This document shows, piece after piece, positions 5,097-10,374 of a stretch of DNA of 64,000 nt. The DNA is taken from contig JABLXX010000005.1 of the NCBI GenBank assembly GCA_013177825.1, forward strand, positions 1 to 64,000, written 5' to 3'. The position numbers were made by a program, and so were the translations under genes. Under the pieces are notes generated by a model that was not told where the DNA came from, did no database searches, and was given only the letters and a program-made list of their open reading frames with translations. Position 1 is the first letter of the stretch, and every line of letters starts with the position of its first letter. Source of the DNA: Syntrophaceae bacterium. Lineage in GTDB: Bacteria > Desulfobacterota > Syntrophia > Syntrophales > PHBD01.

Positions 5097-5125
5097 AGGA
5101 GCAGTCTGTTGAGACCACCTTCAGA

Positions 5126-5246
5126 AGGCTGTTCAAAAAGGGTGGAATGCGAGGCGCCCGAAATCCCGCGCCGCGAGTCTTACTGTTTCGTAGGTCGAGC
5201 GGAGCGGGATGAGGGCAACACAGCAGACGCCCTTTTTCAACAGCCT
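5126..5246. repeat. 121-bp inverted-repeat element
   Basis: The left arm AGGCTGTTCAAAAAGGGTG (5126-5144) and the reverse complement of the right arm (5228-5246, AGGCTGTTGAAAAAGGGCG) agree at 17 of 19 positions. The 83-bp centre is GC rich and has no ORF. It ends 8 bp beyond the arnA(C) stop codon and could also act as its terminator. Confidence 0.75.
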
Positions 5247-5254
5247 GTTGATTG

Positions 5255-6286
5255 TCAGATTTTGTTTTCTTCCAGGAACGAGTACAGCGTCCGCCGCATC
5301 GATTCCTCAAGGTTCACATTCGGCTCCCAGCCCAGCAGCCGCCGGGCCTTCTCGATACTGGGCTTGCGGGTATAGATGTCCTGGTAGCCCTTCCCGTAGA
5401 AGTCCTCCGCGGGCTTCTCGATGATCTCCGAGTAGGCCTTGTCGGCGCGATGGTCCGGGTGCTCCGTGAAGATGCCCTTCAGGAGGTGGGCCAGCTCCCG
5501 GACGGAGCATTCGTTGGAGGGGTTGCCGATGTTGATGATCTCGTTCTTGCAGGCTCCGTCCTTGTTATCCAGGATCCGGATCAGTGCGTCGATGCCGTCG
5601 TCCACGTACGTGAAGCAGCGCTTCTGGTGCCCCCCGTCAACAAGGGTGATGGGACGCTGCATGAGCAACTCGGCGATGAACTGGGTCACCACCCGGGAGC
5701 TGCCCTCCTTGGCGGTGTCGAGGGAGTCCAGCCGCGGTCCGACCCAGTTGAAGGGGCGGAACAGGGTGAACTCCAGGTGTCCCCGGGTACCGTAGGCGTA
5801 GATGACCCGGTCCAGGAGCTGTTTGCAGCACGAGTAGATCCAGCGCTCCTTCTGGATGGGTCCCACCGTGAGAAAGCTTTCGTCCTCGCTGAACTCCGGG
5901 TCCGCGCAGGCGCCGTAAACCTCCGACGTGGAGGGAAAGACGATCCGCTTGTGGTATTTGACGCACTGCTTGACAACATTGAGGTTCATCTCAAAGTCGA
6001 GATGGTAGACGCCGATGGGGTCCTCCACGTAGAGCTTCGGCGTGGCGATGGCTACCAGCGGCATGATGACGTCGCACTTCTTGACGTGGTATTCGATCCA
6101 CTCCCGGTTGATGGCGATGTCGCCCTCGAGGAACTGGAACCGGGGGTTGTGCATAGCGCGGCCGAGGCGGTCCTCCGCCAGGTCCATACCGTAAACCAGC
6201 CAGTCCGTCTCGTCCAGGATCTTGTTGGTGAGGTGGTGGCCGATGAAACCGTTGACGCCCAGGATGAGAATCTTTTTCGTCGCCAT
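5255..6286 (-). CDS. arnA: UDP-glucuronate decarboxylase (stand-alone ArnA C-terminal half)
   Basis: A 343-residue extended short-chain dehydrogenase matching the C-terminal half of enterobacterial ArnA. It oxidises and decarboxylates UDP-glucuronate to UDP-4-keto-pentose, the first committed step to L-Ara4N. Visible features are the NAD-binding GVNGFIGHHL motif (residues 10-19), the catalytic STSEVYG and YSCCKQL (Tyr-x3-Lys) motifs, and FYGKGYQDIYTRKPSI, which holds the Arg assigned to decarboxylation in ArnA. The formyltransferase half is a separate gene at 10453-11445. AAGGAC precedes the ATG. The upstream side is a divergent gap with nhaA. Confidence 0.92.
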   Translation of the reverse strand: MATKKILILGVNGFIGHHLTNKILDETDWLVYGMDLAEDRLGRAMHNPRFQFLEGDIAINREWIEYHVKKCDVIMPLVAIATPKLYVEDPIGVYHLDFEMNLNVVKQCVKYHKRIVFPSTSEVYGACADPEFSEDESFLTVGPIQKERWIYSCCKQLLDRVIYAYGTRGHLEFTLFRPFNWVGPRLDSLDTAKEGSSRVVTQFIAELLMQRPITLVDGGHQKRCFTYVDDGIDALIRILDNKDGACKNEIINIGNPSNECSVRELAHLLKGIFTEHPDHRADKAYSEIIEKPAEDFYGKGYQDIYTRKPSIEKARRLLGWEPNVNLEESMRRTLYSFLEENKI

Positions 6287-6522
6287 TCGCTTGTCCTTTT
6301 CGAGAAGAATCGTCTTTCCAATGTCCCGTGAATTCTGGGAAATCGCTCTTTACGATGTTTTGATGCTTTGCGCAACCCCAATCGGGAATCACCTCGCAAT
6401 CCGGGGACATCCGCTACGGTACACGTCGCCCGACCCCTTCGCCACCCGTCACCGGCATCTGCCCGGGCGGGTCTGCAGACGCCTCCCTTCGCCCGGCTAA
6501 TGACTGAAACCCTTCATATTCA

Positions 6523-6551
6523 TTGAGTATTTCTTTTTCCTGTGGTAAGTG
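6523..6551 (+). promoter_or_regulatory. Predicted sigma-70 promoter of nhaA
   Basis: TTGAGT (6523-6528), a 17-nt T-rich spacer, then TAAGTG (6546-6551). It would start RNA near 6558, leaving a leader of about 176 nt before the nhaA ATG. Confidence 0.45.
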
Positions 6552-6557
6552 GGCACC

Positions 6558-6733
6558 CAATGGTCGTCCCGGTCCGGAACGACCCGATTCATTTCAGGGT
6601 CCATGGATATATTCGTCCCTGGAGGATCCCTGCGTGGTCGGCCCGCCATTCGGAAAGGGGCGTCTGCTTTTTCCCTTTCCGATCCGGCGGCCCGGAGATC
6701 GAGCCTGTCCCGAACCTTTCCGGAGATCTTTGC
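6558..6733 (+). promoter_or_regulatory. Structured 5' leader of nhaA, possible cation riboswitch
   Basis: Three hairpins can be drawn. GGTCGT (6562-6567) pairs with ACGACC (6579-6584). CAGGG (6595-6599) pairs with CCCTG (6617-6621). A strong third has CGGAAAGGG (6651-6659) with CCCTTTCCG (6673-6681), extended by CCGCC (6643-6647) with GGCGG (6686-6690). The last sits about 40 nt before the start codon, where it could control translation. The nhaA-I and nhaA-II RNA motifs, reported as Li+-responsive riboswitches, occur in this position in other bacteria. I could not match the consensus from memory, so the identity is inference. Confidence 0.4.
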
Positions 6734-8161
6734 ATGGATTTGAAACCCTATCCCCTGGAAACACTCTTCGGCCGCATCATGAGCCCCTTCGAGCGCTTTC
6801 TCAAGCAGACCACGGCGGGCGGAATCGTTCTCATCGGGACGACCGTATTCACCATCCTCTTTGCCAACACACCCTGGGGCGGATGGATCCACCATCTTTT
6901 CGAGCAGACCGCCGGGATTACGGCGGGAGGAGAGGTTTTCCTCAGCCTCACTCTCCACCAATGGGTCAACGAAGGGCTCATGGCCCTGTTCTTCCTGCTG
7001 GTGGGACTGGAACTGAAGCGGGAATTCCTGGTGGGAGAGCTTTCAAGCCCGAAGGACGCCGCCCTGCCGATAGTGGCGGCTGCCGGCGGGATGGCCGTTC
7101 CCGCGCTGATCTACTTCATGCTGAATCCGGCGGGACCGGCGGCGGCGGGCTGGGGTATTCCCATGGCCACGGACATTGCCTTCGCCGTGGGAATCCTTGT
7201 CTTGCTCGCCTGGCGGGTTCCCCGGAACGTGATCATTTTTCTGACGGCCCTCGCCATTGTCGACGACCTGGGAGCGGTCCTGGTCATCGCCCTCTTCTAC
7301 ACCCAGGCCATCGACTGGGTGAGCCTGGGCTCGGCGGTCGTCATGCTGCTGTTCCTGACGATGCTCAACCGGGGAGGCATCCGGCATCCGCTCCCCTATG
7401 TCCTGGCCGGGATTCTGCTCTGGGTCTTCCTGCTGAAGTCGGGCGTCCACGCCACCATTGGCGGCGTCCTGCTGGCATTCACGATCCCCGCGAAGCCCGC
7501 CCACACACCGGAACAGTTTGATCGCTCACTGGAGGAACTGAAGGATGCCTTCCATGCGGAGACCTGCGACCCCGAATCCTCGGGAAATCCCCTGAGCAGC
7601 CTTCGCATGGCCACCCTCGCGGAGGCTCTGGAGAAGGAGGCCATTGCGGTTCAATCTCCCCAGCAACGGATCGAACACACCCTCGCCCCCTGGGTCACCT
7701 TCGGCGTGATCCCTCTCTTCGCCTTCGCCAACGCGGGGGTGGACTTTTCCGCCATCGAGGGTTGGGAGGCCCTGGCGGACCCGGTCACCCTCGGCGTGGT
7801 TCTCGGTCTTGTCCTGGGCAAGTTCTCCGGAATCAGCGGGGCAAGCTGGCTGGCCGTCCGGGCCGGACTGGCGGTCCTTCCCCGGGGTGTCGGCTGGATT
7901 CACCTGTGCGGGGTCTCCTGGCTGGCCGGTATCGGCTTTACCATGTCGCTCTTCATCAGCCAGCTGGCCTTTCCCGCGGATCCATCCCTCGCCGAAAAGG
8001 CGAAGCTGGGAATCCTTTCGGCGTCGCTCGTGGCCGCCGTTATCGGATCTGCATGGATGTACCTCGCCGGGGGAACCAAAGGGAAAGGGAGCCGGCATCC
8101 AGGCTCCACCGCTCCGGACACCGGCAGCGCAGCCTGCGGAGGAACCAACGGGACATCTTAA
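6734..8161 (+). CDS. nhaA: Na+/H+ antiporter NhaA
   Basis: A 475-residue inner-membrane antiporter that extrudes Na+ or Li+ in exchange for protons. Diagnostic features are FLLVGLELKREFLVGEL (residues 87-103), MATDIAFAVG with the ion-pathway Asp at 147, and IVDDLGAVLVIALFYT with the paired Asp 177/178 equivalent to E. coli Asp163/164. It is somewhat longer than E. coli NhaA (388), with an insertion of about 60 residues around 250-320 and a Gly/Lys/Thr-rich tail. The start at 6734 follows CGGAGA and begins MDLKPYPLETLFGRIMSPFE; the longer ORF from 6542 would read through the structured leader. Its stop overlaps the stop of the convergent cyclase gene in a shared TTAA. Confidence 0.93.
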   Translation: MDLKPYPLETLFGRIMSPFERFLKQTTAGGIVLIGTTVFTILFANTPWGGWIHHLFEQTAGITAGGEVFLSLTLHQWVNEGLMALFFLLVGLELKREFLVGELSSPKDAALPIVAAAGGMAVPALIYFMLNPAGPAAAGWGIPMATDIAFAVGILVLLAWRVPRNVIIFLTALAIVDDLGAVLVIALFYTQAIDWVSLGSAVVMLLFLTMLNRGGIRHPLPYVLAGILLWVFLLKSGVHATIGGVLLAFTIPAKPAHTPEQFDRSLEELKDAFHAETCDPESSGNPLSSLRMATLAEALEKEAIAVQSPQQRIEHTLAPWVTFGVIPLFAFANAGVDFSAIEGWEALADPVTLGVVLGLVLGKFSGISGASWLAVRAGLAVLPRGVGWIHLCGVSWLAGIGFTMSLFISQLAFPADPSLAEKAKLGILSASLVAAVIGSAWMYLAGGTKGKGSRHPGSTAPDTGSAACGGTNGTS

Positions 8162-10374
8162 ACCCGCTGGGCCTTCCTCTGTTTCTTCTGCTCGTACATC
8201 AGCGTGTCCGCCCGGGTCATCAGGTCGTCGAGACTGGAGGATTCCTGCGGGTCGCACCGCACCGTGCCGATGCTGATGGATATCTTGTAATCCCTGCCTT
8301 CGCGGGCGTTGTGCACACGGAGGCACTCCTCGAAGCGCCCGGTGATGGCGTCGGCATGGTGCAGAGACGCCCCCAGCGCCAGGACCACGAACTCATCGCC
8401 GCCCACCCGAGCGATGATGTCGGATTCGCGGAAGGCCTCCTTCAAAATCGAGGCTGCCTCGACAATTGCTTCGTCCCCCATCCTGTGGCCCAGGTTGTCG
8501 TTGATCCACTTCAGGCCGTCCATGTCGGCGAAGAGAAGCACGATGTCCATGCGATTCCTTTGCGCGATCTTCATCTGTTTTTCGGCAAGGGCCACGAAGC
8601 CCCGGCGGTTGAAGAGGCCTGTCATCGCATCCGAAACGGATTGCCGTTGCAGTTCCTCCTCGAATCGCTTCCGCTCCGAGATGTCGCGGAGGATCCCGCT
8701 GAATCCGACAGGCTTCCCAGTCGGATCCTTCCGCAGGTTCACAGAGGTCTCCACATGAACCGCTACGCCGTCCTTCCGGACCAGTCGGCATTCGAAGAGA
8801 CTGAGGCCGACGCCGGTCCGGAAGACTTTCCCGAACGTCTCCGCGACCTCCGGAACTGTTTCCATGTCCATGATCCGCTGATAATTCAACCCCCGCAATT
8901 CCTCCGGGGAATATTTCAGCATCGCGCAGGCCGCCGGATTGAAGAAGGTCAGGTTTCCCCGGAGGTCCGTCTCCACGTAGCTCTCCCACATGTTTTCAAG
9001 GATTTCCCGGTACTTTTCTTCGCTCCGCTGGAGGGCCTCCTCCGCCGCCTTGCGCTCGCTCACATCGTCGCAGACGGCCACGATCTCACCGGAGGGAAGC
9101 TTGTAGACGTAATTTTCAAGCCACTGGGAAACGCGGTCATCCCGGTACGGCAACGCGCCCATCCGTTTCGGCTTCCCTGTTCTCCAGACCTGGATGAAGA
9201 CGTCCAGAAGGCCCATTGCCCGCATTCCGGGAAACACGTCCCGAACGCTCAGGCCGACGACCTCTATTTTCCTGACCTTGCCGATCCTCTCCATGGACCG
9301 GTTGAGGTCCCGGATGACAAAATCCATGCCGTCGGCCAGGGCCTCGTATACGACCACGCCGCTGCTCATGCTGCCGAACAGCTCCCGGAACCGCTCCTCC
9401 TTGAACGCGATGGCCTGCCGGGACCGGCTGACCACATGGACCATCGACAGGACAACCGTGAAAAGCAGGAGAACGGCAACCGTCAGCAGGATGCCCGCCA
9501 TCCGGTAGACCTGGATCCGCTTTGTCGAATTCAGAAGAACGACGGACCAGCCCTCTTTGTTGAACAGCCTCCGGGAGACGATGAACGTTTCCCCGTCCAG
9601 AACGGCCTCCGTCCCGTCGGTGAGTTCATCGTCCAGGACGGCATCAAAGCCCCTCTTCCCGAACTGCCGGGACAGGCCCAGCGCAGCCGCCGATTCCGCC
9701 CGGACCGGCCACAGGCTCTTCAGAATCCGGCCGGGGCTGCTCGACAGGAAAACGATCCCGTTGGGATCGACCAGGTAGCAGTGGGGGTACTTGCTGAAGA
9801 AAGATTCCGTCGTGTCGAGGATTTTTTGCATGGCGGCGACGCCGACAATCGCGCCTTCCCGGTCCCTCACCGCCTGGCTGGCAAAAAAGCCGCGTTTCCC
9901 GGAGGTGATGCCAACCCCGAAATACCGGCCCCCGAGGCCTCGCATCGCATCCTGGAAATAGGGCCGCGACTGGAAAGACACGCCGACGAAACTGTCCGGG
10001 TCCGGACGGTTGGATGAAGCGACCGTCCGTCCCTCTCTATCCATCAGGTAGGAGACGGAGGCATTCAGACTGGTATTGTACCGGTCCAGGGCGGCATTCG
10101 CCTGTTCGATGTCGGCATCCTTCCCCCCGGTCAGGGCTGGAACGACCAGTGGGGAACCGGACAGGGCCCGGACGGCGCCCTCTATCCTCTCGCACTCGGA
10201 GTCCAGGAGAACCGAGATGGTCAGGGCTGCGGCCTCTCCCTCGCGGATGATTTCCTGCTGTGCCCGGCTGCACAGGGTATCCGTGGCCATCCAGCCGGCC
10301 AGGACAACGGCGGCCACGAGGAGCGCCGACAGGACCGTCAGGCGGAACGGGGTCTCGAGCTGTCGTTTTTCCAT
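8158..10374 (-). CDS. Membrane-bound diguanylate cyclase with Cache-like sensor and PAS domains
   Basis: A 738-residue signalling protein that should make cyclic di-GMP. Order: a membrane helix near residues 13-30, a periplasmic Cache-like sensor (about 35-290; SYLMDREGRTVASS and FQSRPYFQDAM are typical), a second helix near 300-320, two PAS modules (about 335-460 and 465-580; DVSERKAAEEAL and RDISERKRFEEEL close them), then a GGDEF domain. The active site GGDEF is intact at residue 658, and RESD five residues earlier is a product-inhibition I-site. It follows arnA(N) on the same strand after 78 bp and converges on nhaA. A role in tuning lipid A modification would be speculation. Confidence 0.9.
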   Translation of the reverse strand: MEKRQLETPFRLTVLSALLVAAVVLAGWMATDTLCSRAQQEIIREGEAAALTISVLLDSECERIEGAVRALSGSPLVVPALTGGKDADIEQANAALDRYNTSLNASVSYLMDREGRTVASSNRPDPDSFVGVSFQSRPYFQDAMRGLGGRYFGVGITSGKRGFFASQAVRDREGAIVGVAAMQKILDTTESFFSKYPHCYLVDPNGIVFLSSSPGRILKSLWPVRAESAAALGLSRQFGKRGFDAVLDDELTDGTEAVLDGETFIVSRRLFNKEGWSVVLLNSTKRIQVYRMAGILLTVAVLLLFTVVLSMVHVVSRSRQAIAFKEERFRELFGSMSSGVVVYEALADGMDFVIRDLNRSMERIGKVRKIEVVGLSVRDVFPGMRAMGLLDVFIQVWRTGKPKRMGALPYRDDRVSQWLENYVYKLPSGEIVAVCDDVSERKAAEEALQRSEEKYREILENMWESYVETDLRGNLTFFNPAACAMLKYSPEELRGLNYQRIMDMETVPEVAETFGKVFRTGVGLSLFECRLVRKDGVAVHVETSVNLRKDPTGKPVGFSGILRDISERKRFEEELQRQSVSDAMTGLFNRRGFVALAEKQMKIAQRNRMDIVLLFADMDGLKWINDNLGHRMGDEAIVEAASILKEAFRESDIIARVGGDEFVVLALGASLHHADAITGRFEECLRVHNAREGRDYKISISIGTVRCDPQESSSLDDLMTRADTLMYEQKKQRKAQRV

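Follow-up and report, generated by a model that had tools for sequence, protein, structure and literature searches.

A divergent nhaA-I-type riboswitch candidate without a terminator U-run in the nhaA leader of a Syntrophaceae bacterium

The nhaA-I RNA motif was reportedly discovered by Weinberg and colleagues in 2017. Few other lithium sensors are known. As described by White et al. (2022, PMC9646797), nhaA-I RNAs switch genes on with Li+ (class Li+-I), and natural variants sense sodium instead. The same paper states that most Li+-I RNAs are supposed to act through ribosome access and have no terminator, and that nhaA-I variants of Deltaproteobacteria, which carry terminators, sense Na+ (Na+-II); the D. 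propionicus case is marked by a C at position 54. It also reports a weaker Li+ response when two Gs of the conserved loop are replaced by A.

The window analysed here is a 64-kb stretch (64,000 nt) of a Syntrophaceae genome, in which nhaA is an intact open reading frame (Table 1). The upstream neighbour (5255-6286) encodes a UDP-sugar synthase/epimerase type protein and is divergent from nhaA, and the downstream neighbour (8158-10374), which lies on the minus strand, encodes a GGDEF protein. Since both neighbours lie on the opposite strand, nhaA stands alone and must have its own promoter and leader within 6287-6733, with the promoter somewhere in 6287-6596 because of the divergent arrangement. 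The preliminary description had placed a promoter 210 bp upstream of the gene (6523), which would give a leader of about 176 nt. We found no counterpart for this promoter: a consensus scan of 6280-6760 gave no sigma-70-like site at the scan threshold. An upstream-extended nhaA, in the frame open from 6542, was rejected. Closer NhaA relatives align with the protein translated from the ATG at 6734 from its residues 1-7 onward, and by reading, the frame contains no start codon between a GGAG at 6694 and position 6734. Further upstream, a 137-bp element with inverted ends AGGCTGTTCAAAAAGGG ... CCCTTTTTCAACAGCCT occupies 5120-5256; it has 42 matches in the genome including itself (73-100% identity), forming a MITE- or REP-like family.

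Table 1. Features of the nhaA leader and gene, in positions of the window.
Feature	Position	Strand	Details
nhaA-I-type aptamer (GGGU, P1, AGG linker, P2)	6597..6651	+	Rfam nhaA-I 28.2 bits; R1 35.4 bits
P1 stem-loop	6601..6622	+	6601-6608 with 6615-6622, one mismatch (U6604 with C6619)
P2 stem-loop	6632..6651	+	loop 6639-6644 CGGCCC, C at 6642
Anti-P2 hairpin	6643..6690	+	outer stem 6643-6647/6686-6690, inner stem 6651-6659/6673-6681, loop 6660-6672; without U-run
Competing arm GGCGGCCC	6686..6693	+	exact complement of the family consensus GGGCCGCC
GGAG, probable ribosome binding site	6722..6725	+	8 nt before ATG 6734; inferred by reading the sequence
nhaA	6734..8161	+	475-aa Na+(Li+)/H+ antiporter; PF06965 481 bits; TIGR00773 415 bits (cut-off 254)

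The covariance-model search showed that the nhaA leader carries a relative of nhaA-I. At Rfam's own thresholds, the window contained no RNA family match. A permissive search gave a full-length match of the nhaA-I model (RF03057) with an E value of 0.0012, under the gathering score of the family (28.2 versus 37 bits). The element is classed here as a variant rather than a full member of nhaA-I, because it has neither a score at the gathering level nor the conserved loop. The model R1 was made from 48 nhaA-I RNAs of same-order genomes with the window copy excluded. On the 64-kb window, R1 gave the nhaA-leader copy an E value of 7.7e-9, and the runner-up scored 11.9 bits. On the whole genome the E value was 5.2e-7, and the only higher match was a canonical second copy (60.5 bits). 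The third-best match (G000:C2:161199-161285, 23.7 bits) was rejected as an aptamer, as it required long insertions and by eye is apparently coding sequence.

The aptamer lies 82 nt upstream of nhaA. P1 and P2 are present in the family layout, in a full-length alignment with one mismatch per stem. In the family, two-sided changes occur in 13 of the 15 stem pairs, a level that shuffles and slid structures never reached, so that compensatory change in the homologous leaders is strong. The conserved GGGU, the AGG and the P2 closing bases are kept, and 16 of the 17 columns with at least 95% conservation are intact. Because these were kept while the median identity to other aptamers is 47% in the columns outside that set, selection appears to have held the aptamer until recently. 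Homology of the element to nhaA-I is, on these comparisons, very probable. Thus the riboswitch class proposed earlier for this leader is borne out as an nhaA-I homologue, by the model match and the family covariation together. Searched against 6300-6900, the nhaA-II and Sodium/DUF1646 models matched nothing at E values up to 5. The latter model (RF03071) represents Na+-I, which has a similar overall architecture according to PMC9646797, and matched in none of 154 class genomes. Matches to mir-2059 and v-snoRNA-1 (E about 2) belong to families of other kinds of organism and were taken as chance.

Relatives of the window show what the leader probably derives from. nhaA-I RNAs over the cut-off occur in 25 of 100 relatives, 33 of 155 class genomes and 38 of 390 genomes of the phylum sample. 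The set compared below (A3) comprises 98 aptamers in 88 loci, a part of all matches whose selection favours high scorers. In these relatives, the P2 3′ strand has two alternative pairings, one inside the aptamer and one with a downstream GCGG arm that closes a terminator. A rule-based search found the arm in 79 of the 98 aptamers, with a T-run after it in 71 of the 79; several of the 19 aptamers without the arm by this rule show a terminator by eye. These counts are used instead of a looser terminator rule, which gave 78/98. The arm co-varies with the P2 3′ strand, the pair being C-G in 46 of the 79 cases, T-A in 14 and T-G in 6, with 13 not pairing. Three loci (L041, L043 and L048) have the usual loop and a terminator-like hairpin without a T-run, and may have undergone the same shift in mode of control as the window copy.

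The arm of the window reads GGCGG at 6686-6690, which identifies the hairpin described earlier, with its 9-bp perfect stem and outer 5-bp stem, as the counterpart of the competing terminator hairpin of the relatives. Both stems were found as described on reading the sequence, and the outer one ends 43 nt before the nhaA ATG. The earlier count of three hairpins holds for the two upstream stems, which are P1 and P2 of the aptamer; the third is the competing anti-P2 hairpin and does not belong to the sensor. Its stability is above that expected by chance, with z -3.24 and 2 of 200 shuffles reaching it, and it ranks 8th of 79 by strength. The region 6597-6740 as a whole is of ordinary stability (z -0.92; 35 of 200 shuffles as stable), so folding energy alone gives no support for a riboswitch. 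After the hairpin, CCCGGAGATC stands in place of the T's, and a T-run lies within the hairpin's own loop. Since the U-run is absent after the hairpin, intrinsic termination is not expected.

In the folding models, the start region had a mean unpaired value of 0.47 with the aptamer enforced versus 0.24 with the anti-P2 hairpin, and 0.42 versus 0.32 when more upstream sequence was included. The GG of GGAG was mostly paired in both folds alike, and of the two, the anti-P2 fold was the stronger by 5.6-7.8 kcal/mol. This modelled opening of the start region weakly favours translational control, and a kinetic switch or a dead switch would be compatible with the same results. A pairing of 6651-6658 with the second CCTTTCCG copy at 6715-6722, touching the ribosome binding site, would be possible; it was set aside because the anti-P2 form is more stable by about 8 kcal/mol.

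The P2 loop departs from the family. The conserved loop of nhaA-I is CGGGCC, and that of the nhaA copy is CGGCCC: the third G, which all 97 of the 97 other aptamers have, is replaced by C at 6642. The fourth pair of P1 is a U-C mismatch, at a place where 98% of the other aptamers pair. Among the 98 aptamers, 81 have no such departure, nine have one, five have two (window included) and three have more; two of these three have no P1 stem and are doubtful matches. The score of the window copy is the fourth lowest of the 98, and two of the three lower ones are doubtful matches. The competing hairpin has -29.7 kcal/mol versus -36.0, the loop change costing about 6. As the arm GGCGGCCC is the exact complement of the consensus GGGCCGCC, the usual loop was very likely present in the ancestor, which makes the C at 6642 derived or an error. 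A DNA pattern for RNAs with the CGGCCC loop matched in 12 of 395 phylum genomes (13 matches, own included) and in 3 of 154 class genomes, own included. When these matches were scored by R1, the sole credible nhaA-I aptamer was that of the window; one other reached 8.1 bits, and the match in genome G023 was rejected because it lies inside coding sequence. Among the genomes searched, no second genome with the same nhaA leader was found, and our searches of the literature on structures and later work of the class found no description of a CGGCCC variant.

The canonical second copy of the same genome (G000:C2:497703; L001 1501-1591) scores 50.2 bits with the Rfam model and has the consensus loop and a terminator with T7. 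It belongs to the same family, and the nhaA copy differs from it in score, loop, terminator and downstream gene. The gene that follows it encodes a trehalose-phosphatase (TIGR00685, 72.7 bits, cut-off 68.05), a context that suggests ion-controlled osmoprotectant synthesis.

Compared with the described classes, the nhaA copy shares with Li+-I (RF03057) the full-length match, P1 and P2, the GGGU, the AGG linker and UGGU..GCCA. nhaA lies directly downstream, and a terminator is absent, as is supposed for most Li+-I RNAs in the paper cited above. It differs from Li+-I in its score and its CGGCCC loop, and in belonging to a lineage whose nhaA-I RNAs mostly have terminators. With Na+-II it shares the lineage and a hairpin that competes, in the same place, for the P2 3′ strand. 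It differs from Na+-II in the gene, nhaA, and in the terminator platform, of which the hairpin is there and the U-run is missing. From the sequence comparison, the copy would sit with the Na+-II-like group by lineage and ancestral terminator, and it resembles Li+-I by its gene and the lack of a terminator. Thus the Li+/Na+ riboswitch suggested in the preliminary description stands as far as nhaA-I homology goes, and is qualified by the sub-gathering score, the altered invariant loop base and the lost U-run.

We propose that the leader is a divergent nhaA-I ON switch of the Li+-I/Na+-II type, which no longer acts by intrinsic termination and probably controls ribosome access; we lean only just towards this reading. 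That the copy is still a working cation switch has a little better than an even chance. In the ancestral design, with the anatomy of the relatives and the mechanism given in PMC9646797, an alkali cation would stabilise P1 and P2. P2 would then withhold its 3′ strand from the downstream arm, the terminator hairpin would not form and the gene would be expressed. The window has retained the aptamer and the anti-P2 hairpin and lost the U-run. We infer that cation binding persists, that it turns the gene on and that control is translational. In the OFF state, the anti-P2 hairpin would form with the ribosome binding site paired; in the ON state, P2 would be cation-bound and the start region more open, and nhaA would rise with intracellular Li+ or Na+.

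A tentative alternative, which we consider unlikely but serious, is a recently disabled nhaA-I riboswitch, in which the U-run was lost, selection on the aptamer relaxed and nhaA became constitutive or otherwise controlled. The loop G to C and the P1 mismatch are two departures at fixed or near-fixed positions, the score is among the lowest of the set, and the arm GGCGGCCC has stayed complementary to the consensus loop and not to the changed one. The weakening of the Li+ response by two conserved-loop G-to-A changes, reported in PMC9646797, may point the same way. Decay of this kind is opposed by the 16 of 17 intact conserved columns and by the strong competing hairpin that was kept; moreover, one or two departures occur in 14 of the 98 aptamers, including aptamers with intact platforms.

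There is a small probability that the loop G-to-C is a natural change of the cation pocket, with an altered or relaxed preference or a changed threshold. It would have been kept together with a move from the terminator to another mode, in which an anti-P2 hairpin lacking the U-run controls ribosome access or acts kinetically. If this were true, the nhaA-I superfamily would have a third type of specificity in addition to Li+-I and Na+-II.

It is improbable that the riboswitch is of the ordinary nhaA-I kind and that base 6642 is an error of assembly or sequencing. In favour of an error, none of the searches found this C elsewhere, and the arm downstream is complementary to G rather than C. Against it, one error would explain neither the absent U-run nor the P1 mismatch, which are departures of their own. 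Chance resemblance in a GC-rich leader with no riboswitch history is strongly disfavoured and very improbable: the ordinary folding of the whole leader and the 23.7 bits that R1 gives in apparent coding sequence would suit it, against a full-length match of 35.4 bits with the whole-genome E value given above, directly before nhaA and with a matching arm downstream.

A natural variant at an otherwise fixed loop base before an ion exporter, with a canonical copy in the same genome, offers a test of the bases that determine cation choice. The variant also tests how a terminator switch evolves into another kind or dies; if it is a relic only, it has little importance.

At an E value below 1e-7, an aptamer was found at 5 of 94 nhaA loci, namely the window and four others; the 94 include fragments of one gene, and three fragments (L070-L072) of 97 were left out. 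The four other nhaA-linked aptamers have terminators and lie farther from nhaA than in the window. A very short ORF lies between the aptamer and nhaA in L034 (1553-1737; same as L060) and L011 (1555 onward; same as L059). By eye it looks like a small membrane protein, and it is missing in the window.

The Pfam search of 52 downstream ORFs found five NhaA (window included), five P-type cation ATPases, four members of the Na+/H+ exchanger family, two trehalose synthase domains and two trehalose phosphatase domains. Each ORF was taken as the longest starting within 450 nt, a choice that may be wrong in places; the ORFs come mostly from the class, with phylum loci and duplicates left out. Sensing of Na+ or of osmotic state would account for these genes at least as readily as sensing of Li+. 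Tandem nhaA-I aptamers were seen in L176, L177, L184, L187, L190, L194 and L045, with two in a row and three in L194, mostly with their own terminator each.
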